A stretch of 42,304 bases of DNA from Oscillospiraceae bacterium (GTDB lineage Bacteria > Bacillota > Clostridia > Oscillospirales > Oscillospiraceae): assembly GCA_017461445.1 (NCBI GenBank), contig JAFTXW010000021.1, positions 1 to 42,304 on the forward strand, written 5' to 3'. Within the stretch, counting starts at the first letter, position 1, and every line of letters starts with the position of its first letter. The notes beneath the pieces were generated by a model, which was not told where the DNA came from, searched no databases, and saw only the letters and a program-made list of their open reading frames with translations. Of the stretch, positions 4,945-19,009 are shown one piece after another. Made by a program: the position numbers and the translations under genes.

Positions 4945-4980
4945 AGACCGCCATCCCACCAGGGATGGCGGTCTTTCTTC
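4945..4980 (+). terminator. Terminator of gap
   Basis: Perfect 13-bp stem AGACCGCCATCCC (4945-4957), loop ACCA, GGGATGGCGGTCT (4962-4974), followed by TTCTTCTT. Classic rho-independent terminator 28 bases after the gap stop codon. Confidence 0.93.
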
Positions 4981-5423: not shown

Positions 5424-7148
5424 TTGAGCGAGAAGCTGCTGAAATATCTGGTCGAACACGGTATGCTCACCCAGGAGCAGGCGGACCAGCTGCGCAAGGA
5501 CAGTGTTGAAAAGAAAAAGAGCATCCGGGAGCTGTTGAGTGAGAGCGGTTCCGTAACGGAGGAGCAGCTGCTGGAGGCCCTGGCCGCCGTGTCCCGGCTG
5601 CCCGTGGTGCGCCTGTACGAGGAGCAGATCCCCCTGGAGGTCCGCCAGCTGGTGAAGCCCGACCTGCTGCGCAGCAATGTGGTGCTGCCATTTGGCTTTG
5701 ATCCTGAGGATCACGGCACCATCCTGGTGGCCCTGAACGATCCCATGAACATCAAGGGCCGTGACCTGGTGGCCCATACCGGCAAGTGTCGGGTCCGTCC
5801 GTACCTTGCCACCACCAGCGATATTCTGCTGACCATCGACCGCTACTACGGCACCAGCGAAATGCTGGAGGCCGCGGAGATCTACGAGCGGGAAAATGAT
5901 GTGACCGCCTCTCTGGAGGAGACCATCATCCAGGAGGACGTCAACTCCTCCCCCGTGGTCATGCTGGTCAATTCCCTGGTGGAGCAGGCTGTCCGCCAGC
6001 GCGCTTCCGATATCCATGTGGAGGCGGAGCCTGACCGTGTCCGTGTCCGCTGCCGTGTTGACGGCGTGCTCTACTCCACCGCCAATTACAGCCTGAAGCT
6101 GCTGCCCGCCATCGTGGCCCGTATCAAAATCGTCAGCGGCCTGGACATCTCCGAAAAGAGAAAGCCCCAGGACGGCCGCTTCACTGTTACCGTTGACCAC
6201 CGGGAGTACGACATTCGTGTGTCCACCCTGCCCACGGTCTACGGCGAAAAGTGCGTGCTCCGACTGAACCAGAAGAAGGCCCTCAGCCGCAACAAGAAGA
6301 CCCTGGGCCTTTCCGATGAGGATATGGTCAAGTTTGACCGGATCCTGAGCCATCCCAACGGCATCGTGCTGGTCACCGGCCCTACCGGTTCCGGTAAGTC
6401 CACCACTCTGTATACCGCCCTCAGCGAGCTGAACAACGACACGGTGAACATCATCACGGTTGAGGACCCTGTGGAAGCCAACATTGAGGGCATCAACCAG
6501 GTGCAGGTGAACGTGAAGGCCGAACTGACCTTCGCCAACGCCCTGCGCTCCATCCTTCGTCAGGACCCTGACATCATCATGATCGGTGAGATCCGTGACG
6601 GCGAGACCGCATCCATCGCCGTCCAGGCTTCCATCACCGGCCACCTGGTGGTCAGTACCCTGCATACCAATGACACCGCCAGCTCCGTCACCCGTCTTCT
6701 GGACATGGGTGTTGAGAGCTATCTGATCGCCGACTCCACCGTGGGCATCATTGCCCAGCGTCTGGTCCGCCGCCTGTGCCCCCACTGCCGCAGGGAGCGG
6801 GCACTGCTGGAGCACGAGGCTGATTATTTGGAGCTGTCCCCCAAGGACCGGGCGAAGCAGACCATTTTTGAGCCCGTAGGCTGCCAGCGGTGCAACGGCA
6901 CCGGCTACTACGGACGTATCGGCGTTTATGAGATCATGGAGATCACCCCCCAGCTGCGGGGCTTGATCGCCCGCCGGGCTCCCACCGATTCCATTCGGGA
7001 GACCGCCATTGGCGAGGGTATGCTGACCCTGCGCCAGAGCGTCCGCCGCCTGGTGCTGGACGGCACCACCGCCATCTCCGAGATGCACAGCATTTCTGTG
7101 GAGGACTATGAGCAAATGTCTAATATCTCCCATACTGGAGAGGAATAA
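5424..7148 (+). CDS. pilB: Type IV pilus extension ATPase PilB
   Basis: Cytoplasmic hexameric ATPase that drives pilin polymerisation, 574 residues, normal for PilB/GspE. The N-terminal GspE-N (MshEN-like) domain covers about residues 5-140. The ATPase domain has Walker A GPTGSGKST at 319-327 (Lys325) and Walker B DPDIIMIGEIRD at 381-392 (Glu389). The zinc-binding tetracysteine loop typical of PilB is present: Cys452, Cys455, Cys487 and Cys490. The N-domain lacks the RLGxxL signature of cyclic-di-GMP-binding MshEN domains, so I do not claim ligand binding. Translation starts at TTG 5424, seven bases after AAGGAG (5411-5416); no ATG fits. It heads a co-directional run of pilus genes, with pilT three bases downstream. 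Confidence 0.96.
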   Translation: MSEKLLKYLVEHGMLTQEQADQLRKDSVEKKKSIRELLSESGSVTEEQLLEALAAVSRLPVVRLYEEQIPLEVRQLVKPDLLRSNVVLPFGFDPEDHGTILVALNDPMNIKGRDLVAHTGKCRVRPYLATTSDILLTIDRYYGTSEMLEAAEIYERENDVTASLEETIIQEDVNSSPVVMLVNSLVEQAVRQRASDIHVEAEPDRVRVRCRVDGVLYSTANYSLKLLPAIVARIKIVSGLDISEKRKPQDGRFTVTVDHREYDIRVSTLPTVYGEKCVLRLNQKKALSRNKKTLGLSDEDMVKFDRILSHPNGIVLVTGPTGSGKSTTLYTALSELNNDTVNIITVEDPVEANIEGINQVQVNVKAELTFANALRSILRQDPDIIMIGEIRDGETASIAVQASITGHLVVSTLHTNDTASSVTRLLDMGVESYLIADSTVGIIAQRLVRRLCPHCRRERALLEHEADYLELSPKDRAKQTIFEPVGCQRCNGTGYYGRIGVYEIMEITPQLRGLIARRAPTDSIRETAIGEGMLTLRQSVRRLVLDGTTAISEMHSISVEDYEQMSNISHTGEE

Positions 7149-7151
7149 GTA

Positions 7152-8210
7152 ATGAAAAGCTTTAGTGAAATCGTACATACCGCTGTGGCGCGGGATGCTT
7201 CCGACCTGCATATGACCGTGGGCCTGCCGCCCATCTACCGGATCGACGGCGATCTGGTCAACGAGGGTGAGGAGCGTCTGACGGAGGAGCAGGTTGCTGC
7301 CGCCGTCCGGCAGCTGGCCAATGAGAACCAGCTGGAGGAGCTGAAGAAGAACGGCGAAAGCGACTTTGCCGTCACCTTTGAGGGCACTATCCGTATGCGC
7401 TGCAACGCCTTCTATCAGCAGGGACGCACCGCCCTGGCACTGCGTATGCTGCCCCTGACGGTTCCCACCGTGGAAAGCCTGGACTTGGCCCCCGTTATCG
7501 TGGAGCAGGCGGAAAAACCCCGGGGACTGGTGCTGCTGACCGGCCCCACCGGTTCCGGTAAGTCCTCCACCCTGGCTGCCATGCTGGATCATATCAATCA
7601 TACCCGCCGCCGCCACATCATCACCCTGGAAAACCCCATCGAGTTTGTGTATACCCCTGACAAGTGTATCATCAACCAGCGGGAAGTGGGCGACGATACC
7701 GGCTCCTTCGCCGCCGGCCTCCGTGCCGCCCTCCGTCAGGATCCGGACGTGATCCTGGTGGGCGAGATGCGTGACCTGGAGACCATCTCCACCGCCATCA
7801 CCGCCGCCGAGACCGGACACCTGGTGTTCGGCACCCTGCACACCAAGGGCGCGGCCAATACCATCGACCGTATCATCGACGTATTCCCCCCCGCCCAGCA
7901 GGAGCAGATCCGCATCCAGCTGGCAGACGTGCTGGAATGCGCCATCTCCAAGGCACTGCTGCCCAAGATCGGCGGCGGCCGTGTGGGTGTTTATGAAATT
8001 CTGGTGGCGACCCCCGCTGTCCGCAGCCTGATCCGCCAGAACAAGAGCTTCCAGATTACCAGTGCTATGCAGACTGGCAAACGTCAGGGTATGCAGCTGT
8101 TGGATGATGCCCTGGCTGACCTGGTCCGCAGGGGACAGGTCACGCTGGACAATGCCCTTTCGGTGGCAAATGACCCTGTTGCTCTACGAACTCAGTTTGG
8201 GAGGTTTTGA
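7152..8210 (+). CDS. pilT: Type IV pilus retraction ATPase PilT
   Basis: Cytoplasmic ATPase that depolymerises the pilus and powers retraction and twitching. 352 residues, the usual PilT length. Walker A GPTGSGKS lies at 131-138, the Walker B region reads DPDVILVGEMRD, and the His-box region ETGHLVFGTLHTKGA follows. The PilT N-terminal PAS-like fold starts ASDLHMTVGLPPIYRIDGD, a family hallmark. It begins three bases after pilB with a GAGAGG ribosome site and ends three bases before pilC. A dedicated retraction motor indicates dynamic pili rather than a static pseudopilus. Confidence 0.96.
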   Translation: MKSFSEIVHTAVARDASDLHMTVGLPPIYRIDGDLVNEGEERLTEEQVAAAVRQLANENQLEELKKNGESDFAVTFEGTIRMRCNAFYQQGRTALALRMLPLTVPTVESLDLAPVIVEQAEKPRGLVLLTGPTGSGKSSTLAAMLDHINHTRRRHIITLENPIEFVYTPDKCIINQREVGDDTGSFAAGLRAALRQDPDVILVGEMRDLETISTAITAAETGHLVFGTLHTKGAANTIDRIIDVFPPAQQEQIRIQLADVLECAISKALLPKIGGGRVGVYEILVATPAVRSLIRQNKSFQITSAMQTGKRQGMQLLDDALADLVRRGQVTLDNALSVANDPVALRTQFGRF

Positions 8211-8213
8211 TTC

Positions 8214-9431
8214 ATGCCTTCTTACAGTTATGTAGCAATAAACCGGGTGGGCAAGCGCATCAAGGATAAGGTGGACTCACCATCTGTGGAGGCTGCTAAA
8301 AATTCCCTCCGGGCTGCGGGCTACTCCATTCTGGAGATTAAGGAGCTGGGCGCGCTGGATAAGGACATCGACCTGCCTTTCCTGGGAAATCCCACGGCAA
8401 AGGATATGGCCCTGTTCTGCCGCCAGTTCCAGTCTATTCTCCGGGCAGGTGTGCCCGTTTCCAACGTCCTTTCCATGCTGGGCCAGCAGACGGAGAATAC
8501 CAAGCTGGCTGCCGCCATTCGCGAGATGCAGGCGGGCATAGAAAAGGGCGAGACCCTGGCTGGCTCCATGCGCAAGCACCCCAAGATTTTCTCCTCCATG
8601 CTGTGCAACATGATCGCCGCCGGCGAGGAATCCGGTAATCTGGAGGAAGCCTTCCGCCAGATGGAGGACTACTTCGACAAGGCAAAGAAGACCAAAGCCG
8701 CCGTTGGCAAGGCTATGGTGTACCCCTGTGTCCTGATCGTGGTCATGATCGTGGTTCTGATCGTGATGATGACCACCATTATCCCCAAATTCCTGGCTAC
8801 CTTTACCGAAATGAACATGGAGCTGCCCTTCCTGACCCAGTGCGTCATGGCGGTCAGCGACTGGTTTGTTGCCTGGTGGTGGCTGATCGCCATCATCCTG
8901 GTGGTTCTGGTCGTGGGCGGCATCCTGTTCAACCGCACCAACCGGGGACGGCACTTCTTCGGATTCATCGTCCGCAAGCTCCCCGTTGTGCAGAATCTTG
9001 TGGTCCGGTCCGAGTGCGCCACCTTCAGCCGCACCCTGGCATTGCTGCTGGGCTCCGGCCTGTCCCTGTCCGACAGCCTTGACCTGGTGGCTGCCAATAT
9101 GAACAACATCTGGTTCCGGGAGGCGGTGCTGACCAGCCGGGCCATGGTGTCTGAAGGCTGGGCCCTGAACATTGCCCTGAAGGATACGGGCCTGTTCCCC
9201 CCCATGGTCTATAACCTGGTGGGCATCGGCGAGGAGACCGGCGACCTGCAGGGTATGCTGACCAAGACCGCCGACTACTACGACGACGAGGTGCAGGACG
9301 CCACCGCCAACCTGCTGTCCCTGATGGAGCCCTGTATCATCCTGTTCCTGGCTGTGTTCGTTGTCATCATCGTGCTGTCCATCTTCCTGCCCATGATGAA
9401 CATGACCAAGGCCTACGACCAGTATCTGTAA
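8214..9431 (+). CDS. pilC: Type IV pilus inner-membrane platform protein PilC
   Basis: Polytopic membrane protein on which PilB and PilT act, 405 residues as usual. Two repeated T2SSF domains are visible: about 65-190, opening FCRQFQSILRAGVPV, and 265-390, opening ECATFSRTLALLLGSGL. Each contains the family pattern G-E-x-(S/T)-G-x-L (GEESGNLEE and GEETGDLQG). Hydrophobic segments fall near 165-190, 215-240 and 370-395. The N-terminal 60 residues (YSYVAINRVGKRIKD) are the typical PilC start. It lies in the operon between pilT and pilD with 3- and 21-base gaps; the ribosome site GGGAGG overlaps the pilT end. Confidence 0.95.
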   Translation: MPSYSYVAINRVGKRIKDKVDSPSVEAAKNSLRAAGYSILEIKELGALDKDIDLPFLGNPTAKDMALFCRQFQSILRAGVPVSNVLSMLGQQTENTKLAAAIREMQAGIEKGETLAGSMRKHPKIFSSMLCNMIAAGEESGNLEEAFRQMEDYFDKAKKTKAAVGKAMVYPCVLIVVMIVVLIVMMTTIIPKFLATFTEMNMELPFLTQCVMAVSDWFVAWWWLIAIILVVLVVGGILFNRTNRGRHFFGFIVRKLPVVQNLVVRSECATFSRTLALLLGSGLSLSDSLDLVAANMNNIWFREAVLTSRAMVSEGWALNIALKDTGLFPPMVYNLVGIGEETGDLQGMLTKTADYYDDEVQDATANLLSLMEPCIILFLAVFVVIIVLSIFLPMMNMTKAYDQYL

Positions 9432-9452: not shown

Positions 9453-10205
9453 ATGGATCTTCCTATCCTGATCCTGCTTACCCTGCTGGGACTTTGCGTG
9501 GGCAGCTTCTGCAATGTTCTGATCTACCGCCTGCCCAAAGGAGAGGAGTTCGTAAAGACCCCTTCCCACTGCATGACCTGCGGCCATCCCCTTAAGTGGT
9601 ATGAGCTGATCCCGGTGTTCAGCTGGCTGGTCCAGGGGGGCAAATGCCGCAGCTGCGGCGTGAAGATCTCTCCCCAGTATCCCATTGTGGAAGCCCTCAA
9701 CGGCCTGATGTGGCTGCTGGCGGGTCTCCTGTTCCGGGGCGACTGGCTGACTGTGGCACTGTACTGCGGCCTTTGGTCGCTGCTGATGGTGCTGTCCGTC
9801 ATCGACTGGCGCACCTTCACCATCCCCAACGGCATCAACCTGGTCATCTTCCTGCTGGGCGTGGTGCGGTTGGTGACGGATCTGAGGAACTGGCCCCTGT
9901 ATCTCATCGGCATGGCTTCCGTCAGCCTGGTGTTCCTGCTGCTGCACGTCCTCACTGGCGGCAACGGCCTGGGCATGGGCGATGTGAAGCTGGTAGCCGC
10001 TGCGGGACTGCTGCTGGGCTGGCCGAAGATGATCCTGGCTGTCCTGATCGGCAGCCTGTCGGGAGCCATCATCCATTCCGTCCGTATGCGCGGCGGCGCG
10101 GGGAAAAAGCTTGCCTTCGGCCCCTATCTCGCTGCCGGCATCTGGCTGTCCGCCCTGTTCGGAGGCCAGCTGATCTCTGCTTACCTCAGCCTCTTCGGGC
10201 TGTGA
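9453..10205 (+). CDS. pilD: Prepilin peptidase / N-methyltransferase PilD
   Basis: Membrane aspartyl protease (A24 family) that cleaves prepilins after Gly and methylates the new N-terminus. 250 residues. The N-terminal methyltransferase domain carries both CxxC pairs (Cys40/Cys43 and Cys65/Cys68) around the conserved LKWYELIPVFSWL. The two catalytic aspartates are Asp118 in VIDWRTFTIPN and Asp177 in GMGD. About seven hydrophobic segments are visible. An AAGGAG site precedes the ATG. The three prepilins later in the operon are its expected substrates. Confidence 0.96.
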   Translation: MDLPILILLTLLGLCVGSFCNVLIYRLPKGEEFVKTPSHCMTCGHPLKWYELIPVFSWLVQGGKCRSCGVKISPQYPIVEALNGLMWLLAGLLFRGDWLTVALYCGLWSLLMVLSVIDWRTFTIPNGINLVIFLLGVVRLVTDLRNWPLYLIGMASVSLVFLLLHVLTGGNGLGMGDVKLVAAAGLLLGWPKMILAVLIGSLSGAIIHSVRMRGGAGKKLAFGPYLAAGIWLSALFGGQLISAYLSLFGL

Positions 10206-10251: not shown

Positions 10252-13113
10252 ATGAGCAAACGCAAAATCACCGGCAAGGTGCTGTCCGTAAGACTTGGCC
10301 GGGATGAAACGCAGATCGTTCTCATGGGCACCAATTCCGAGATCCTGCACACCGCAACTGTGGAGACTCCCGCAGGTGCGGTGGAGGACGGCATGATCCG
10401 GAACGCGGATGCCGTCCATGGAATGCTGAAGGAGGCCCTGCGGGAGCCGGAATTCAAGCGTGCCCGGAAGGTGATCTTCACCCTGTGCACCTCTCAGGTC
10501 ATTACTGAGACGGTCACGGTGCCCGATCTGCCCCCCAAGAAGCTGGAAAAGCTGATCCGCACCAATGTGGACATGTATTTCCCGGTGGATATGAAGGATT
10601 ACCAGATGGTCTGGCAGGTCATCGGCCCCAAGGCGGATTCCGAGGAGCTGTCTGTCCAGCTGTGGGCGGTGCCCACTGCCATGGTGTCCCGGTACTATGC
10701 CGTGGCTAATGCCTGCGGCCTGTCCCTGGAAGCGGTGGACTACTGCGGACACAGTATCGCCACTGCCGTGGGTGCGTCCTTTGCCCGTCCTGCGAAGACA
10801 GCCGATCCCGCCAAGGCTCCCAAGGCAAAGAAGGGCCTGTACCTGCGCCAGAAGAATGCGCCGGAGGAGGAAGAAAAGGACGAGCGGGGCTACGACTCCG
10901 ATACCGACCTGTATGTCACCCTGGAAAGTGACCTGCTGGGCATGACCTTCGTGCAGAACGGCCAGGTGGTGATGCAGCGATTCACCCAGTGCGGCTCCAA
11001 TCCCGCCTACCAGTATGCGGAGCTTTCCATGATGCTGGAATACTTCCGCTCTCTGGATGTGGGCCGGGGCAGCTTCCTGCGGGGCTATCTGACCGGTGCC
11101 CTGTCCACCTATAAGGATGTGACCACCGAGCTGGAGGATGTGCTGGGCCTGACCCTGACCCCCTTCTCTTCCAGCTATGATCCCCGGCTGTGCCTGTGCG
11201 TGGGTGCCTGCCACACCACCATGGAATTCGGCATGCCCGCCCTGAACAAGCCCGGCAAAGCCCGCCGGGAGTTCCAGAGCCAGATCTGGCAGTATGGCCT
11301 GCTGCTGGCAGGCGGCCTGGCAGTGATCTTCGTAGTTCTGCTGCTGCTCAATTCCCGCCTCAGCTGGAGCTCTGAAATCAGCGGCCTGGAATCTACCCGT
11401 CAGACGCTCAGTATCCAGGCGCAGCAGACCAACGAGTATTCCACCAATTACAATAACTATGTCTCCGTCTACAACGCCTACAGCCAGGACTGGGACACCA
11501 TCTTTGCCAGCCTGCAGACCTATAACGATAATCTGGTTCTTGTGCTGGAGGAGCTGGAGCAGATCATGCCTGAAAACTGCAGCGTTACCCAGCTGCAGAT
11601 CAGCTATGACGCGATCCTGGTAAGCTTCGCCTGCGAAACCAAGGAAGAGGCTGCCTATCTGATCATGGAGCTGCGGGAGCTGCAATACGCCGACCTGGCG
11701 GGCATCACCTCCCTCAGCGGCGGCGGTAAGGGCCCCGCTACCTCCTACGGCTCTGAGGAGGAAGAGGGCGAGGAAGCCCCCACCGAGGGCAGCGTTACCC
11801 TGACCGACGACCAGATCAATACCCTGGTCAAGCTCTTTGCGGGTTCCGTGGATTCCGGCGACATCCTGGATGTGGCCCTGACCCTGAGCCCCAAGCAGAT
11901 CGAGCTGATCGAGGAAACCTACAGCAAGGAGCCCGAGACCCAGAACAATAACATCGATGCTGTGAACGCAAACATGGGCGATGAAGTGACCGTCTTGGCC
12001 CGGGCCAACGCCATCAACGACACCCTTACCACCAACTACTTCGCCATGTACCATTTCTTCAACCTGCTGGGCGAGGATATCATGCGGGACGATCCCTTCC
12101 TGTGGGATGTGATCGACGATGAGATGCTCAGCGAGGAGAATTCGGACATCTGGGCCGCCATCACCAGCGGCACCGTGGACGATGCCAAGACCCTCCAGAA
12201 CTACACCCGCCGGGTGGTCACCATTCTGACCCGGGACGAGGAGACCATCGCCGCTACCGAGGAGCTGATGCGCCAGCATGAGCGGATGCAGCAGTGGTAT
12301 GTCTACTATCTGGAGGAGGAGCTGGGCCTCCACGCCCACGAAGCCTACCCCTACCTGGATGTGGAAAAAGTCATTGCCGACCTGATGAACGGCAGCTTCA
12401 ACACCCCGGACACCAACGCCAACGAGAAGCTGAACAGCCTGGTTCCCGATGCCGCCTGGAAGATGCTGGCCCTGCTGAACAAGGGCGACGAGGAAGAGAT
12501 CAAGGACCTCCCCGGCGGCCTGACCGAGGACGAGATGATTGCCATCTATAAGAAGTATATTGCCGGCGAAGCCACCGCTGCCCAGAAGCAGCTGGCAGAA
12601 GAGGTAAACAAACGGTACCTCGCAAACGATCTGAAGGGCTATGACAAGCTGAAGAAGCTGATTGCTGACCACCTGAAGAACGGCCAGGAAGAGGACGAGG
12701 ACTATATCATCGGCTCCTACACCGAATCCGACCTGAGAAAGCTGCTGGATAACCTGTTCAGCATCGGCACCACCGGCAGCTCCCAGCTGGACGATTCCTT
12801 CAAGCAGATGATGGCTATGATCTGCGCGGGCCAGTCCACCGGCAATTCCAAGCTGGACAACCTGCTGGCTTCCTACATAAAGGCATATCCCAACCATCCT
12901 ATCGTTCAGGAGATTCTGGCATCCCTGTCCGGCAGCAGCGGCTCTGGCGGAAGCGGTGCCGGCCCCACCGATACCCGTACCCACTTCACTGCTGCCCTGG
13001 CTTACAACGACCAGCTCAGAAATGCCGAGCTGGAGCGCAAAGGCCTGTCCGCGGATGACAAGGTAGAGGATGTTATTCAGGAAAAACTGGCGAACGGGGA
13101 GGAGGGCAAATGA
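10252..13113 (+). CDS. PilM-PilN fusion with large insertion
   Basis: One 953-residue protein joins two alignment-complex components that are normally separate. Residues 1-335 look like PilM, the actin-like cytoplasmic ATP-binding protein, including a TVPDLPPKKLEKLIRTNVD stretch. A charged linker lies near 185-220. A transmembrane helix at about 348-369 (YGLLLAGGLAVIFVVLLLLN) begins the PilN part, with a coiled segment to about 430 and half of its ferredoxin-like fold at 445-490 (SVTQLQISYDAILVSF, then ITSLSG). Residues 490-906 are an acidic, mostly helical insertion I cannot assign, ending in a GSSGSGGSGAG linker. The last PilN strand THFTAALAYND resumes at 910. Stop and pilO start overlap by four bases. 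The module boundaries are read by eye. Confidence 0.85.
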   Translation: MSKRKITGKVLSVRLGRDETQIVLMGTNSEILHTATVETPAGAVEDGMIRNADAVHGMLKEALREPEFKRARKVIFTLCTSQVITETVTVPDLPPKKLEKLIRTNVDMYFPVDMKDYQMVWQVIGPKADSEELSVQLWAVPTAMVSRYYAVANACGLSLEAVDYCGHSIATAVGASFARPAKTADPAKAPKAKKGLYLRQKNAPEEEEKDERGYDSDTDLYVTLESDLLGMTFVQNGQVVMQRFTQCGSNPAYQYAELSMMLEYFRSLDVGRGSFLRGYLTGALSTYKDVTTELEDVLGLTLTPFSSSYDPRLCLCVGACHTTMEFGMPALNKPGKARREFQSQIWQYGLLLAGGLAVIFVVLLLLNSRLSWSSEISGLESTRQTLSIQAQQTNEYSTNYNNYVSVYNAYSQDWDTIFASLQTYNDNLVLVLEELEQIMPENCSVTQLQISYDAILVSFACETKEEAAYLIMELRELQYADLAGITSLSGGGKGPATSYGSEEEEGEEAPTEGSVTLTDDQINTLVKLFAGSVDSGDILDVALTLSPKQIELIEETYSKEPETQNNNIDAVNANMGDEVTVLARANAINDTLTTNYFAMYHFFNLLGEDIMRDDPFLWDVIDDEMLSEENSDIWAAITSGTVDDAKTLQNYTRRVVTILTRDEETIAATEELMRQHERMQQWYVYYLEEELGLHAHEAYPYLDVEKVIADLMNGSFNTPDTNANEKLNSLVPDAAWKMLALLNKGDEEEIKDLPGGLTEDEMIAIYKKYIAGEATAAQKQLAEEVNKRYLANDLKGYDKLKKLIADHLKNGQEEDEDYIIGSYTESDLRKLLDNLFSIGTTGSSQLDDSFKQMMAMICAGQSTGNSKLDNLLASYIKAYPNHPIVQEILASLSGSSGSGGSGAGPTDTRTHFTAALAYNDQLRNAELERKGLSADDKVEDVIQEKLANGEEGK

Positions 13114-13739
13114 TGAAATTCATCGGTAAATACTGGAAGCTTTTCGTTGCCATTGCCCTGCTGGTCGGCGCGGCGTACCTGTACTTCAATACCTACCAGA
13201 TGGAAAAGCTGTCCTACGAGACCCAGGCAGCCCAGCTGAAGATGATGAACACCTCTCTGGAAGCCAAGATCCAGGAGAATATGCGCTATGTGGATATCCA
13301 GGAGGACCTGGCTGCGGCCACCGAGCGGGTCGAGCGGAGCCGTCTGGACCTGTACGAGCATTTCCCCGTGGAGATGAAGGAAGAGGACCAGATCATGTAT
13401 GTGCTGTATCTGGAAACCATCTTCGGCACCGAGATTAACTTCCAATTCAACCAGGCGGGTGTCATCCAGCAGTTGCGGGATGGCTCCAACCTGATGGGCC
13501 TGCTTCTTACGGTAAACTATGAGACCAACTATAAAGGCTTCAAGGACATGGTCAAGTATCTGGCTACGGATTCCCGGGTCACTTCTGTCTATTATACGAC
13601 CATCGAATATGATGCCGCTACGGATAAAGTCAAGGGTGATGTCACCCTGCTGCTGTATCTGATCGATACAACTGATCGTGACTACGTATCTCCCAACGTT
13701 GCCGAGCCTTCCACCGGCAAGGACAATATCTATGACTAA
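13110..13739 (+). CDS. pilO: Type IV pilus alignment protein PilO-like
   Basis: Bitopic membrane protein of 209 residues expected to pair with the PilN part of the preceding fusion. A short cytoplasmic N-terminus is followed by one transmembrane helix (LFVAIALLVGAAYLYF, about 11-26), a coiled-coil at 30-85 (YETQAAQLKMMNTSLEAKIQ) and a ferredoxin-like C-terminal domain. The segment LTVNYETNYKGFKDMVKYL is typical of PilO ('v.G.Y..l..Fl..L'). The start overlaps the pilMN stop (ATGATGA), and a second in-frame ATG follows at 13113. Position and architecture support PilO more than sequence identity, which is low in this family. Confidence 0.82.
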   Translation: MMKFIGKYWKLFVAIALLVGAAYLYFNTYQMEKLSYETQAAQLKMMNTSLEAKIQENMRYVDIQEDLAAATERVERSRLDLYEHFPVEMKEEDQIMYVLYLETIFGTEINFQFNQAGVIQQLRDGSNLMGLLLTVNYETNYKGFKDMVKYLATDSRVTSVYYTTIEYDAATDKVKGDVTLLLYLIDTTDRDYVSPNVAEPSTGKDNIYD

Positions 13740-13747
13740 TCTTTGTT

Positions 13748-13778
13748 CACGGATAGAAGGCCCTGCCTTCTATCCGTG
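13748..13778 (+). repeat. Hairpin inside the pilus operon
   Basis: Perfect 13-bp stem CACGGATAGAAGG (13748-13760), loop CCCTG, CCTTCTATCCGTG (13766-13778), followed by AAAAAG rather than T. It lies in the 90-base gap between pilO and the first prepilin. Without a T-run it is more likely an mRNA processing or stability element, or a partial attenuator separating machinery from pilins, than a full terminator. Confidence 0.75.
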
Positions 13779-13829
13779 AAAAAGTATATGGAAAGTACCG
13801 CCGCCCTTTCGGGAAAGGAGGACAAAATC

Positions 13830-14189
13830 GTGAAACAAAAACATAACGGGGGCTATTCCCTCATCGAAGTGCTGGTAGCAATCGTGCTGCTGGGCATTTT
13901 CGTGGCTCCCACCTGTTCCAGCCTGGTCATGGGCTACCGCATGAACAGCAAAGCCGACCAACTGATGCAGGCCCAGCTTGCAGTCTCCTCCGCAGTGGAA
14001 ACCCTGATGGCGGAGGGCATTGACAAGGATGAACATGGAACGGGCGCAACACTGGATCGCTTTGAAAATGTTACAGTTACGACAGTACTGGACAGTAGTG
14101 GATCGTTCTACAAGGTAACTGTCCAAAGTGATATCGAGGCATCGGTTGTTGTCACCACATATATTCGGGAAGAAGGTGGCAACGGATGA
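13830..14189 (+). CDS. Minor prepilin, PilV/GspI-like
   Basis: Small prepilin of 119 residues. The class III signal is short and clear: MKQKHNGG followed by YSLIEVLVAIVLLGIFV, with cleavage after Gly8 and the conserved Glu at +5. The SLIEVLVAIVLLGI helix is the form seen in PilV/GspI minor pilins. The start is GTG 13830, preceded by AAAGGAGG; the frame stays open upstream to 13743 but without a ribosome site. The globular part is short (about 80 residues). It overlaps the next gene by four bases (ATGA). It probably joins a tip-initiating minor-pilin complex. Confidence 0.88.
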   Translation: MKQKHNGGYSLIEVLVAIVLLGIFVAPTCSSLVMGYRMNSKADQLMQAQLAVSSAVETLMAEGIDKDEHGTGATLDRFENVTVTTVLDSSGSFYKVTVQSDIEASVVVTTYIREEGGNG

Positions 14190-14707
14190 AAAAGCACGAC
14201 GAAGGCTATACCATACCGCTGGTGCTGGTGGTCATGGTCATTATGATCCTGGTCGCCTCCCTGGTGCTGGCAAATTCCCTCCAAACCGCCCAAAACCAGC
14301 AGGAAGCGATCCTTCAAATGAAGGATAAATATGCTGCCGAGGGTAAAATCGAAATCCTAGTGGCACAGCTGCTCCAGGAAAGTGAATACACTTCCATGAC
14401 GGAAATCAGCGAGAACGCTGTTCACAATGAACTTATAACACTATGCGCATCGGCTGGTGTTACACTTGCCGATACCACCGTCACAAATGAAGCTGGCGAA
14501 ACGGTAATTGAGGCACCGCAATATTCGCTGGTGGACGGTGTGCTTACTTATATCTTTACAGTCAACGCTGAACAGAATACAACTAAAATAACAACTCAAC
14601 TAAAGTTGGAGTGTAAGATTGAAAAAGATGCTTCATCCGATGCTGATGTTGTAAAAACTCCCAAAATCACCTATAACACCTACCAGATCGGAGGTGCCAC
14701 AGAATGA
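14186..14707 (+). CDS. Minor pilin-like protein, PilX/GspK-like
   Basis: 173-residue protein with an atypical prepilin start: MKKHDEG then YTIPLVLVVMVIMILVASLVLA. Position +5 is Leu instead of Glu. Loss of Glu5 is characteristic of GspK/PilX-type pilins that sit at the very tip and need no partner above them. The helix continues into LQTAQNQQEAILQMKDKYAAEGKIE, as in PilX family N-terminal regions; the C-terminal 90 residues are beta-rich and unassigned. It overlaps both neighbours by four bases. Base composition becomes more A/T-rich in its second half than in the pilus machinery genes, as is common for surface-exposed pilins. Confidence 0.75.
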   Translation: MKKHDEGYTIPLVLVVMVIMILVASLVLANSLQTAQNQQEAILQMKDKYAAEGKIEILVAQLLQESEYTSMTEISENAVHNELITLCASAGVTLADTTVTNEAGETVIEAPQYSLVDGVLTYIFTVNAEQNTTKITTQLKLECKIEKDASSDADVVKTPKITYNTYQIGGATE

Positions 14708-15873
14708 CCGATCGTAAAAACGGCGGCTTTACGCTGGTGGAGCTGATGGTGGTCATTCTGATCGGCTCCATCATTACCCTGTCGGCAACCACCGTCCTGC
14801 TGTTCAGCCTGCGGATATACCTCCAATCCAACGAGATCCAGAAACAGCAAAACAACACCCGCATCCTGATGACCGCCCTGGAAGACATGGCGGCAGAGGG
14901 CATGGTCGATGAAGAAAAGACAGAAGCTGTGGGAAATAAAATCGTGGACAGCAATGACAATTCATTAATGGAATATGTTCCAGAAGAAAATGCTGTTAAA
15001 GCAGGTGGCACGGCAGTGCTGACTGACGTAACAGGTTTTGAAGTGAAGTCGGGAGAGAGTACGGAGGATGGTCTGATTACGGTGACCATCACCTTCAAAA
15101 ACGAAAAAAGCTACACCTCCACCGTCTTCTGTCGCGCAGGCACAACGGTAACGGCTCCCACAGCTGCATCAGGAGAAAGTACACCGAAGAGCGGTGGGGC
15201 TGATGCAGCATCCTATTCCTTCTCCATCGAGGGGGCGAAATCCGTCGCCAGCCTTCCCCAAATCACCGAAACCCTCTCCCAAAACAAAACCGGCGAAGCC
15301 CGGTCTGCCTTCCTGGACACCCTGCTGGCCCAAACGGACAGCGGCGGCACCATCCAGGGTACCGGGGAATACTTCTCCCAGTGGTACATCACCGCCAAAG
15401 AGGGCGGGGAAAGCTGGGGCGGCGACTGGAACGGCGGCACCCCCTGGTGTGCCTGCTTCGTCTCCTGGGCCCTGTCGGGTACTCCCGGCGTCACCGCCCC
15501 GGCAGAACGGGTCAACGGTGACGGCGTGGCCTACTGGTATGCCAACGTGGACGAGTTTATGGAATACTTCGACCCCAATAACGAGGGGAGTACCGAGGAT
15601 GTCAGCTGGTACTGGAACACCCAACTGGTGCCCCACAGCCCCGCCCCCGGCGACCTGATCTTCTTCGACTGGACCGCCGACACCGAGAGCAATCCCGAGC
15701 ACATGGGCGTGGTGCTGTATACCGACAACGGCGGCACCGCCTTTGATACCTCCGACGATACCGTCTATACCATCGAAGGCAACACCTACGGCACCACCGC
15801 CATCCGCAGCTACGCCCTCACCGACCCCCGCATCCTGGGCTACGGCACCCTGAACTGGACCCCCAACGCTTGA
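14704..15873 (+). CDS. Modular prepilin (PilW/GspJ-like) with C-terminal CHAP domain
   Basis: 389-residue prepilin fused to a cysteine peptidase/amidase. Class III signal MTDRKNGG, then FTLVELMVVILIGSIITL with Glu at +5, like PilW/GspJ minor pilins. Pilin-type globular part to about residue 147; a Thr/Ala/Ser/Gly linker at 148-170; a helical bridge at 185-235. Residues 240-389 match CHAP/NlpC-P60-like amidases: TPWCACFVSWALS with candidate nucleophile Cys249, PAPGDLIFFDW at about 315-323, EHMGVV with His333, and YTIEGN with Glu358 or Asn360 as third residue. Such domains cut peptidoglycan amide bonds. PilD should process the protein, placing the enzyme on the pilus. Modular minor pilins are a known class (e.g. 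the vWA-bearing PilB of Streptococcus sanguinis); I do not know a described CHAP example. The CHAP half is far more G/C-rich than the pilin half. Confidence 0.9.
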   Translation: MTDRKNGGFTLVELMVVILIGSIITLSATTVLLFSLRIYLQSNEIQKQQNNTRILMTALEDMAAEGMVDEEKTEAVGNKIVDSNDNSLMEYVPEENAVKAGGTAVLTDVTGFEVKSGESTEDGLITVTITFKNEKSYTSTVFCRAGTTVTAPTAASGESTPKSGGADAASYSFSIEGAKSVASLPQITETLSQNKTGEARSAFLDTLLAQTDSGGTIQGTGEYFSQWYITAKEGGESWGGDWNGGTPWCACFVSWALSGTPGVTAPAERVNGDGVAYWYANVDEFMEYFDPNNEGSTEDVSWYWNTQLVPHSPAPGDLIFFDWTADTESNPEHMGVVLYTDNGGTAFDTSDDTVYTIEGNTYGTTAIRSYALTDPRILGYGTLNWTPNA

Positions 15874-15883
15874 ACAAAATCAG

Positions 15884-15913
15884 ATACCGGACAGCTGCTG
15901 TCCGGTATTTTTT
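15884..15913 (+). terminator. Terminator of the pilus operon
   Basis: ATACCGGACAG (15884-15894), loop CTG, CTGTCCGGTAT (15898-15908), followed by six T. It starts 10 bases after the CHAP-pilin stop and closes the operon, so the CHAP-pilin is its last gene. Confidence 0.93.
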
Positions 15914-16424: not shown

Positions 16425-17363
16425 TCAAAAGGTGCGCCAGCACTTAGAGCGCATAAACGCTACGATCTCGCCATTATCCCGGCCCTCGTAATAGGCCACC
16501 AGAAGCCGCTTGAACTCCGGCACATGGCTTTCGGGGATCACGATCAGGCCCTGCCCCTTGGAGATCATATAGTGGTTGGCAAAGATCACCGATGCCCGCT
16601 TGTTGCCGTCGTTGAAAATCTGAGTTTTCATGCAGTAAAGGCACAGTCGGATGGCGGTGTCCACATCGTCGGTGCCACCCAATAGGATGGCATCGATGTT
16701 CTCTTTCACAACAGTTTCAATGGGCAGAGGGGGAACATAGCTGGTGCCGCCGATGGCCACAGGCACACCACGGATGCGTCCGCCGTCCGTGTAAAAACCC
16801 TCGTTGACCAGCTTTGCGATGTGGCAGAGGATGTAATAATCCGTAGAATAGCTCAGCACATCTTTGTCCAGAATGAACTCCCAGGCATGCTTCAGATTCA
16901 AAATTTTCTGCACGTCGGTGGCGGTCATACCGGACACGATGCCGTTTTCGATGATGGTCTCCGTCTGAGGATAGGTGGTAGCCACGCCCTCCAAAACCGC
17001 CTGATCGTAAATATTAGCCTTCATGTTGGCTCTGGCGAAATCCAGATTCAGTATGACCCGGGGAGAAAGCTCGGTTTCCTCGTAGCCCAGTGCGGCAAGC
17101 TCTTTCTCCACCCGGCGGATCTGCTTCCGCAGTTCCCGGGCCTCTCTGGCATTGCGGAGCAGAAGCTGGTACAACTCATCGGAATAACCATCCACATAGG
17201 TGGAGGTCAGACGACTGCCCACCCGCTTGCGAACGTAGAGATATTTCTGACCCTCCCGGTCCTTGATTTCCGGGGAGCCATCATAAGGAATCAGATTCAG
17301 CCGTGCCTGATAGTCCGCTTTCTGATGCAGCAGCTCCTGAATTTTGGAGTAGTTATTTTCCAT
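16425..17363 (-). CDS. Fic-domain protein with non-canonical motif
   Basis: 312-residue Fic/DOC-fold protein. Canonical Fic enzymes transfer AMP or related groups to target hydroxyls through an HPFx(D/E)GN(G/K)R motif. Here the motif is KTQIFNDGNKR at 246-256: Phe250, Asp252, Gly253, Asn254 and Arg256 are kept, but the catalytic His position is Gln248. The N-terminal 100 residues are helical and charged (coiled-coil 60-92). ETIIENG at 135-141 resembles the inhibitory (S/T)xxxE(G/N) helix but is imperfect. The start follows AAGGAGG. No antitoxin gene is adjacent; the gene stands alone between two operator-like repeats. Either it has altered chemistry or it is catalytically dead; AMPylation should not be assumed. 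Confidence 0.85.
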   Translation of the reverse strand: MENNYSKIQELLHQKADYQARLNLIPYDGSPEIKDREGQKYLYVRKRVGSRLTSTYVDGYSDELYQLLLRNAREARELRKQIRRVEKELAALGYEETELSPRVILNLDFARANMKANIYDQAVLEGVATTYPQTETIIENGIVSGMTATDVQKILNLKHAWEFILDKDVLSYSTDYYILCHIAKLVNEGFYTDGGRIRGVPVAIGGTSYVPPLPIETVVKENIDAILLGGTDDVDTAIRLCLYCMKTQIFNDGNKRASVIFANHYMISKGQGLIVIPESHVPEFKRLLVAYYEGRDNGEIVAFMRSKCWRTF

Positions 17364-17683: not shown

Positions 17684-19009
17684 TTATGAACAGACAAAAT
17701 CATTCATATATACGATATAGTTCTGCCAATCCTCTGCAGTGAGCTGATGTCCTTCAGAATGGACGTGAACCGCAACACCTTCACTGAAAATAGGCTGGTC
17801 AGGAATGACATCGTCGTAAGTACCATCCGGAATTACATCTATACCGTAGATATTCTGCCAAACAGGCTTAGCTTCCTGTAGAGCATCCCAGGTTGCTTTT
17901 GGATCGGAGGCCAGATCCTGCTGGCCAATACTAATATAGAGATTGCGGTCAGCAATCAGCGCATAGAGCATATGGATGTCTACCGGCAATTCTTCGTCTC
18001 TGCCCTCGTAAGCGTAGTATTCAGCGGTAAACCAATGATTGCTGGTACCATCTGTATCGATCTTTGCAAACAGGGGACTGCGAACCAGACCACCACCACA
18101 GCTGGCAGTAACCAGATCTATGCGTTCGTCACAGGCACCTGCCCAAAGAGATACTCTTGCAAGCCGGGAATGGCCTGCCGTACCAATGGCATCCATATCA
18201 ACTTGCTCCAGCTGTTCCAGGTAGTCGATGCCTCTCATAATGCCAAATGCCCATGCAGAAAATGCGGTGCAGTTTTCCTCAGGGAACAGAGTCAGCACTT
18301 GATCGCGATAACTTTCCGCATCATCCTTTGCCCAATCACCGTAGTACATGGTGGCGATACCGTAACCGGAATCGATAATCAAGTCTACAGGCCAGCTACC
18401 GGATTCGATGCCCCTTTCTCCCACATCATCCTGACTGGAGGAGGGGATAATTACTTCATCATTCCATACGGCGGTGTTTCCGCTGAAATTCAGGCCAACA
18501 AACATGCCGTAGTTCTCTGCATTTGCCGGGGTATAGATCAGCAGCATAGCATCGCTGGAGCCATGTTCATTGCTTATGGTGATCCGAACCTGTTGACGCT
18601 CAGCCTTGCCGTTCAGAGCGATGCCGCTTTCTACAACAGTGAATGTGGTATTAAAACCATCCGTAGGTGTTACGCCGTACATATAGGTTTCGTAAAGGGA
18701 AAGCATTTCTTCCCGATGTGCATCATACTGCTCGGGCGTTGTGACTGCATCGCCTGCTTCATTTACCAGCAGTTCGGGAAGTCCCGGGTAGCTTCTGTCC
18801 ACATCCAGAACGAAATTGCGGAATCCTTCCGGCAAGTCAAAGCCGCCATAAGATACCATGGAAAGAATTCCCTTGAAGCTGAGGGTATCTCCGACAAAAT
18901 AGCGGATCATGCCGTAGGAAAAGCCCAGAAAAACAATGGTGGCAACCAGCAGTACGATGAGTAACCTTGCCCACCAGGGCAGTTTTTTCTTGCTTTGTTT
19001 TGCTTGCAT
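17684..19009 (-). CDS. Membrane-anchored CE15-like esterase (glucuronoyl esterase family)
   Basis: 441-residue alpha/beta-hydrolase with an N-terminal anchor: a KKK motif followed by one hydrophobic helix (LLIVLLVATIVFLGFSYGM, about 16-34), no lipobox, so the catalytic part should face outside. Family signature GHSRLARVSLWAGACDERI at 279-297, with Ser281 as nucleophile, and a late GHQLTAEDW with His421 as probable catalytic His. This pattern is that of CE15 4-O-methyl-glucuronoyl esterases, which split ester bonds between glucuronic acid and lignin or other alcohols, and of related bacterial esterases of broader specificity. It starts after AAGGAGG, 17 bases downstream of the MATE gene and is its likely co-transcribed partner. 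Substrate is inference. Confidence 0.75.
   Translation of the reverse strand: MQAKQSKKKLPWWARLLIVLLVATIVFLGFSYGMIRYFVGDTLSFKGILSMVSYGGFDLPEGFRNFVLDVDRSYPGLPELLVNEAGDAVTTPEQYDAHREEMLSLYETYMYGVTPTDGFNTTFTVVESGIALNGKAERQQVRITISNEHGSSDAMLLIYTPANAENYGMFVGLNFSGNTAVWNDEVIIPSSSQDDVGERGIESGSWPVDLIIDSGYGIATMYYGDWAKDDAESYRDQVLTLFPEENCTAFSAWAFGIMRGIDYLEQLEQVDMDAIGTAGHSRLARVSLWAGACDERIDLVTASCGGGLVRSPLFAKIDTDGTSNHWFTAEYYAYEGRDEELPVDIHMLYALIADRNLYISIGQQDLASDPKATWDALQEAKPVWQNIYGIDVIPDGTYDDVIPDQPIFSEGVAVHVHSEGHQLTAEDWQNYIVYMNDFVCS

Follow-up and report, generated by a model that had tools for sequence, protein, structure and literature searches.

The window analysed here, a 42,304-nucleotide contig of an Oscillospiraceae gut bacterium (JAFTXW010000021.1), contains a gene in which a prepilin is fused to a CHAP hydrolase. 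This gene, pilJ-CHAP (14704..15873, plus strand), encodes 389 amino acids; its open reading frame (ORF) starts with ATG, ends with a stop codon at 15871-15873 and has zero internal stops, in agreement with the uninterrupted frame described in an earlier, sequence-only reading of this DNA. Three consecutive parts can be told apart on that strand: a GspJ/ComGF-like pilin module (residues 1-145, 14704..15138) that ends at a C143-R144 motif; a predicted disordered linker (approximately residues 146-195, 15139..15288) whose length varies among fusions and in which predicted local distance difference test (pLDDT) values fall below 50 (residues 144-195); and a CHAP domain (approximately residues 196-389, 15289..15870) with Cys249, His333, Glu358 and Asn360. 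A pilin module, a linker and a functional module unrelated to pili together make this a modular pilin.

The N-terminus of the protein (MTDRKNGG/FTLVEL) is a class III prepilin signal with a Gly/Phe cleavage site, glutamate at +5 and a hydrophobic helix, and scored 33.3 bits against the Pfam family N_methyl (cut-off 21.2), as the sequence-only reading had led us to expect. That reading had also placed a CHAP/NlpC-like domain from residue 240; the four residues it named are all present, but the predicted structure of the whole protein has the CHAP part starting earlier, near residue 196. The search with hidden Markov models that it had suggested matched residues 243-360 to CHAP (PF05257) at 27.2 bits (cut-off 26); Amidase_6 (20.8 bits, cut-off 23.2) and NLPC_P60 (16.2 bits, cut-off 23) were rejected as identities of the C-terminal domain. 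Fold comparison of the modelled domain could not separate CHAP from NlpC/P60, and the model combines, as anticipated, a pilin fold with an intact Cys-His CHAP site. In an alignment that set the CHAP domain of the window protein beside that of a second fusion and 39 CHAP domains from viral contigs, W248, C249, F252, G316, D317, D322, H333, G359 and N360 are invariant. None of the 15 fusions described below has lost any of the catalytic residues (Cys, His, Glu and Asn); in a Pfam scan covering eight of the 15, all eight had an N_methyl and a CHAP match at E≤1 (best CHAP match 1.1e-12); and the one close pair compared showed purifying selection on both the pilin and the CHAP module. These features suggest that pilJ-CHAP hydrolyses peptidoglycan.

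The genes upstream of the fusion form a pilus operon of the order pilB-T-C-D-M-O-I-K-J on the plus strand, in which neighbouring genes lie 3 to 46 bases apart or overlap by 4. It comprises the extension ATPase pilB (5424..7148); the retraction ATPase pilT (7152..8210), a T2SSE family match named from its place after pilB and its kinship; the platform protein pilC (8214..9431); the prepilin peptidase pilD (9453..10205); pilM (10252..13113; PilM_2, 39.6 bits), whose product of 953 amino acids includes a PilN-like part (13.2 bits, below cut-off) and a long C-terminal extension; a pilO-like inner-membrane assembly protein (13110..13739), assigned by place and synteny with no family match above cut-off; the GspI/ComGE-like minor pilin pilI (13743..14189), whose true start codon is uncertain; and the GspK-like minor pilin pilK (14186..14707), which has no Glu5 (G/YTIPL) and overlaps the start of pilJ by 4 bases. 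A terminator-like stem with 13 pairs and a T tail (15882..15910, plus strand) begins 8 bases 3' of the fusion's stop; this stem and another of 13 pairs at 4945-4974 are the longest two in a scan that found 14 such stems against 9.5 expected (sd 3.0), a number not clearly above chance. Given the operon layout and these long flanking stems, pilJ-CHAP is most likely the last cistron.

When modelled, the pilin module has the GspJ fold and most resembles the tip pseudopilin GspJ, which supports the kinship with GspI/J/K-type tip-complex pilins proposed earlier. ComGF was the best-scoring equivalog-type model on the module (28 bits, cut-off 80), and at E≤0.1 ComGF matched 13 and GspJ 10 of 18 J modules; the module is kin of ComGF, not its ortholog. 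Glu5 is kept in 18 of 18 PilJ proteins and missing from 12 of 12 pilK products, and GspK-type tip pilins typically lack it too. Family matches of PilK were to GspK and ComGG (2/12 each, at E≤1), ComGE (4/12) and PilX_N (3/12); its predicted model was too poor to use (mean pLDDT 56.7), and its kinship is read from the missing Glu5, the operon place and these weak matches. Because the pilin module is GspJ-like and the neighbouring pilK lacks Glu5 as GspK does, the pilus probably has the CHAP enzyme at its tip. In the Com pilus, four minor pilins including ComGF have been modelled at the tip, and a ComGD-ComGF contact has been demonstrated by crosslinking (PMC12153270). The ComGF/GspJ tip pilins of that account share with the fusion the pilin fold, the operon place and a tip complex with a K/G-type partner, and differ from it in having no extra catalytic domain (PMC12153270).

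The same fusion occurs in 15 genomes of three families: in 14 of them it occupies the J position in an operon of this type, and in the fifteenth it lies near a contig end. The search of relatives suggested by the sequence-only reading was thus borne out, and a frameshift or misassembly as the source of the fusion is strongly countered. Five of these genomes belong to the window's genus, eight more to its family (G171, G967, G1017, G1025, G1096, G1105, G1126 and G1140) and one each to two other families (G229 and G284). G1105 has the fusion close to a contig end and its pilB, pilT and pilC on a different contig; in G967 and G1025, BLAST recognised no pilK between pilI and the fusion. The fusion is not last in G1126, where two pilus genes follow it: a prepilin-like ORF of 442 residues (L088 13825-15153, plus strand; GFTLVELVITIAVL) and then a pilD-like gene.

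Searches of wider sets of genomes delimit this distribution. Among 60 relatives searched with the whole protein, G028 alone matched in both halves. A PilT search covering 136 genomes of the genus returned 23 places, spread over 21 genomes, five at ≥82% identity (window included) and 18 at 42-52%; apart from the window, 20 of the remaining 22 were examined. The fusion is the J gene in all five close operons, and was not found on the pilT strand at the 16 more distant places examined, several of them short stretches. PilC matched in 13 of 394 genomes of the order, and all 12 others were examined: G229, G284 and G171 (62-68% identity) carry the fusion, and nine genomes at ≤48% showed none in the stretch examined, which a contig end cuts in G423, G161 and G187. 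A profile built from eight fusions (A2) matched 9 of 300 genomes of the family at E≤1e-45, one of 10 in G229's family and one of 87 in G284's family. At E≤1e-12, 58 of 391 genomes of the class matched: the window's genome and G171 over the full model, G882 in the pilin part only and the other places listed in the CHAP part. On plasmids and phages we saw no fusion, only matches to residues 248-385 (7 and 4 records); nor did we see one on viral contigs (at least 600 stretches, 399 confirmed loci), where the best 80 of the 399 loci match within residues 179-387. In the genomes sampled, the fusion is rare and patchy.

The genes that flank the operon differ between most species compared, even within the genus, and large serine recombinases (Resolvase, Recombinase, zinc ribbon) adjoin it in G171, G091 and G089 (L052 12395-13891, plus strand; L180 312-1916, minus strand; L181 7342-9018, plus strand). 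These two observations suggest that the pil operon may travel as a cassette, and whole-operon transfer would explain its patchiness. Third-position GC is 0.49-0.62 in pilI, pilK and the pilJ pilin module (13743-15288), 0.86 in the CHAP part (15289-15870) and 0.72-0.83 in pilB to pilO; this step across pilJ perhaps reflects a recombination event in the genes for the tip pilins whose breakpoint lies in the linker. Downstream of the fusion on the opposite strand lie a Fic-domain protein (16425-17363) and a glucuronyl-esterase-like protein (17684-19009), neither with a homologue in the flanks of eight other loci compared. Three species of the genus have a secreted protein of approximately 1,520-1,680 amino acids after the fusion (L027 13058-18097, with homologues in L025 and L026), the G028 copy ending in a dockerin. 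Upstream of pilB, G1126 has an SLH-domain surface protein directly adjacent (L088 638-3772), and G171, G229 and G284 have large ORFs related to one another. PilM is encoded by a long ORF whose size differs widely, with 953 amino acids in the window and between 538 and 1577 in the relatives that share the operon. This ORF (10252-13113 in the window, 6259-10992 in L050 and 855-2471 in L098) matches PilN weakly and has a C-terminal extension of no assigned role. The likely major pilin of the window's genome lies outside the operon (contig C23, L062 1712-2173, minus strand); beyond the genus, several relatives have a pilin gene directly after pilC.

We propose that this Clostridia species, which we take to be monoderm, builds a type IVa-like pilus with pilJ-CHAP as a modular minor pilin, and that the CHAP domain of that pilin opens the cell's own wall for the growing pilus, a reading that we consider moderately likely. 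The GspJ/ComGF-type N-terminal module would be inserted in the membrane and processed by PilD, and the processed J subunit built with PilI and PilK into a priming tip complex; the CHAP domain, on its flexible linker, would face the inner side of the wall and cut the peptides of peptidoglycan immediately in front of the emerging tip or alongside it; and the pilus would extend through the local hole so made. That a tip J subunit with its own hydrolase primes each filament, physically coupling wall opening to growth, has in our view an even chance of being right.

LytF of Streptococcus sanguinis, a CHAP hydrolase that promotes type IV pilus exit through a monoderm wall, provides the closest guide to such a function (PMC13192262). 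This separate enzyme raises extracellular pilin and surface pili, and its catalytic mutant fails in transformation like the deletion; enzyme supplied from outside gives no rescue (PMC13192262). Its authors propose that LytF possibly associates with the pilus (PMC13192262); from that association, a fusion of both activities in one polypeptide would be predicted. LytF differs from pilJ-CHAP in being a secreted protein with N-terminal Bsp repeats rather than a pilin (PMC13192262), whereas the N-terminal half of pilJ-CHAP is a pilin in which the Pfam scan found no Bsp repeat. The ComG pilus with which LytF works is reported to need only eight com genes and no PilT, PilM or PilO (PMC12153270), whereas the window operon, unlike a ComG operon with its ATPase, platform protein and five pilins, includes pilT, pilM and a pilO-like gene.

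Several results weigh against our proposal. The CHAP score of the window protein is only just above the Pfam cut-off, and the NCBIfam ComGF equivalog, although nearly its whole model is covered, reached 28 bits against a cut-off of 80. The predicted structure of pilJ-CHAP is only fair (mean pLDDT 67.2, predicted template modelling score 0.50; residues 214-244 and 268-273 below 50), and Foldseek returned zero matches for it in the PDB at E≤0.001. Neither did the A2 profile match a wall hydrolase among solved structures at E≤0.01 (best 7cfl, 0.11), and a single-sequence search of them gave nothing under E 0.1. Most relatives, moreover, do without the fusion: of the 391 class genomes, only that of the window and G171 matched over the whole length.

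Pilin-only J genes also count against it. As a control independent of the fusion, PilC was searched in the same 300 family genomes; 41 matched, 11 of them at ≥57% identity. The fusion is present in nine of these 11; in G1024 a contig end (L093, 3,819 bases) truncates the operon, and the genome, 85% complete, gave no A2 match at E≤0.001; and the J gene of G1016 (L098 4032-4469) stops right after the pilin module, with no CHAP. Of nine places at 39-48% identity, the six examined (G338, G1110, G408, G376, G1137 and G902) all had no fusion in the stretch covered, and G408 provides a second pilin-only J gene (L057 7793-8257); inspection went down to this identity range, with 21 further places lying below it. 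These pilin-only proteins end just past the position of the C143-R144 motif; a sister operon in G435 has a pilin-only J as well (L054 9331-9819). Since the J genes of G1016 and G408 have no CHAP, such a pilus may not need it, and since they stop where the pilin module ends, the CHAP domain is, by comparison of these genes, a losable module. In G1016, a Peptidase_S26 signal-peptidase gene, presumably SipW-like, follows pilJ, and then a gene for a small secreted protein that we take to be TasA-like (L098 4531-5091; L090 2784-3395).

On the PilC tree (13 fused rows; G1016, G1024, G338, G408 and outgroups labelled not fused), the fused label needs four changes rather than one, a count to which two long branches and the cut operon contribute and which further burdens the proposal. 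G408 is a long branch inside the fused clade whose placement is perhaps false; G338, another, has no minor pilins adjoining pilC. The CHAP tree supports a single clade of fused CHAPs: rooted at the midpoint, it groups them together (92/95), apart from 30 CHAPs of other loci, the motif having been lacking in four of the 34 such loci tried, which were dropped. We read these trees as a single gain close to the root of this operon clade, with no fewer than one loss (G1016).

The sequence-only reading had allowed the enzyme to act either on the cell's own wall or on neighbouring cells. The second, our main rival explanation, in which the tip hydrolase is a contact weapon or a fratricin that frees DNA or nutrients, seems unlikely to us. 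A tip position would supply reach, PilT is present at ≥70% identity in 13 of the 15 fusion genomes, and ComEC, found in 13 of the 15, makes uptake of released DNA possible; ComEC is, however, so common (10 of 14 control genomes also have it) that its presence does not discriminate, and we rejected a competence role inferred from it. Streptococci have competence-linked hydrolases in CbpD and LytF, and CbpD-type fratricins likewise tie a wall hydrolase to a pilus-bearing competence state; these differ from the fusion in being secreted, in killing neighbours and in having an immunity protein, ComM, and S. sanguinis LytF was found not to be fratricidal (PMC13192262). No conserved immunity candidate appeared among ORFs of ≥80 amino acids downstream of the fusion (13 of 15 loci with ≥1 kb; shorter ORFs not compared): those common to loci were confined to the close pair G967 and G1025 and to the large secreted protein of three species; an immunity gene might be of smaller size or located elsewhere. 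Because of this result and the LytF precedent, own-wall opening is better supported than action on neighbours. Retraction by PilT, to which the sequence-only reading had given the role of extending reach, is weakened as a requirement of CHAP function: G967 and G1025 (94% and 90% complete) have operons without pilT (L086 and L085), and a PilT search of their genomes returned, at E≤1e-20, nothing but the PilB-type match, yet they keep the CHAP fusion. Both pilin-only operons (G1016 and G408) also have no pilT between pilB and pilC, the interval searched in those genomes, which would fit a use that needs retraction, on tiny numbers; this joint absence has a chance of approximately 0.04 if the 17 operons were independent, which they are not.

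It is improbable, we think, that the fusion does most of its work prior to assembly, as a pool of subunits in the membrane that loosens the wall on behalf of pilus stations or other surface machines, its place at the tip being incidental. Processed pilins do remain embedded in the membrane before assembly (PMC8179133), and the failure of externally added LytF to rescue would suit such a pool (PMC13192262), but the position of J beside a Glu5-less K points to a tip complex. Slighter still is the probability that CHAP merely binds peptidoglycan, as an adhesin for other cells or wall debris comparable to the lectin and vWA modules of S. sanguinis PilC and PilB: ligand binding is a common theme among modular pilins (PMC8179133), but binding would not need the Cys, and each of the 15 fusions retains every catalytic residue.

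CHAP and NlpC hydrolases of Gram-positive conjugation systems are wall enzymes dedicated to an envelope-spanning machine. Those of CTn1-Orf17 (PDB 4hpe) and CTn7-Orf16 (PDB 9ubf) resemble the fusion's CHAP domain in this respect, and differ in being soluble or anchored two-domain proteins of a type IV secretion system, not filament subunits. Unlike VirB1/Orf14-type proteins, pilJ-CHAP has no lysozyme-like domain, and it is surrounded by a pilus operon rather than a type IV secretion cluster. CHAP kin in the order include proteins with lysozyme-like plus CHAP domains (L008), and would, as we read their sequences, belong to wall-hydrolase contexts. S. sanguinis PilB and PilC share with the fusion an N-terminal pilin module, a linker, a large grafted module and a likely tip location (PMC8179133; PMC9934059); their modules are, by contrast, adhesins (vWA and lectin; PMC8179133).

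We found no description of a pilin-CHAP fusion in the literature searched, and nothing specific on pili in Oscillospiraceae; to this extent the sequence-only reading, which knew of no described case, holds, but modular pilins (PMC8179133) and a pilus-aiding CHAP enzyme (PMC13192262) have both been described. Modular pilins come in as many as 264 architectures, with modules that include vWA, lectin, PA14 and predicted peptidases S74 and M26 (PMC8179133). By text count, 'chap' is absent from the main text of that article, whose supplementary architecture list may hold an entry (PMC8179133). The pilin-CHAP fusion would thus be a new combination within a known class, and adds an enzyme, rather than an adhesin, to the better-supported modules of modular pilins. 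How a type IV pilus crosses a thick monoderm wall is an acknowledged open question (PMC6916266; PMC13192262). If our reading is true, pilJ-CHAP would be a natural 'Rosetta stone' fusion for the link between LytF and the pilus. To our knowledge, it would also be the first filament subunit to cut the barrier that its own filament must cross. A hydrolase on a tip-type pilin makes wall crossing testable by one catalytic point mutation that leaves filament composition unchanged, with the two natural pilin-only alleles as ready controls. Together, these results suggest that the recurrent weld of a pilin to a CHAP domain is how such a pilus could cross the thick bacterial wall.
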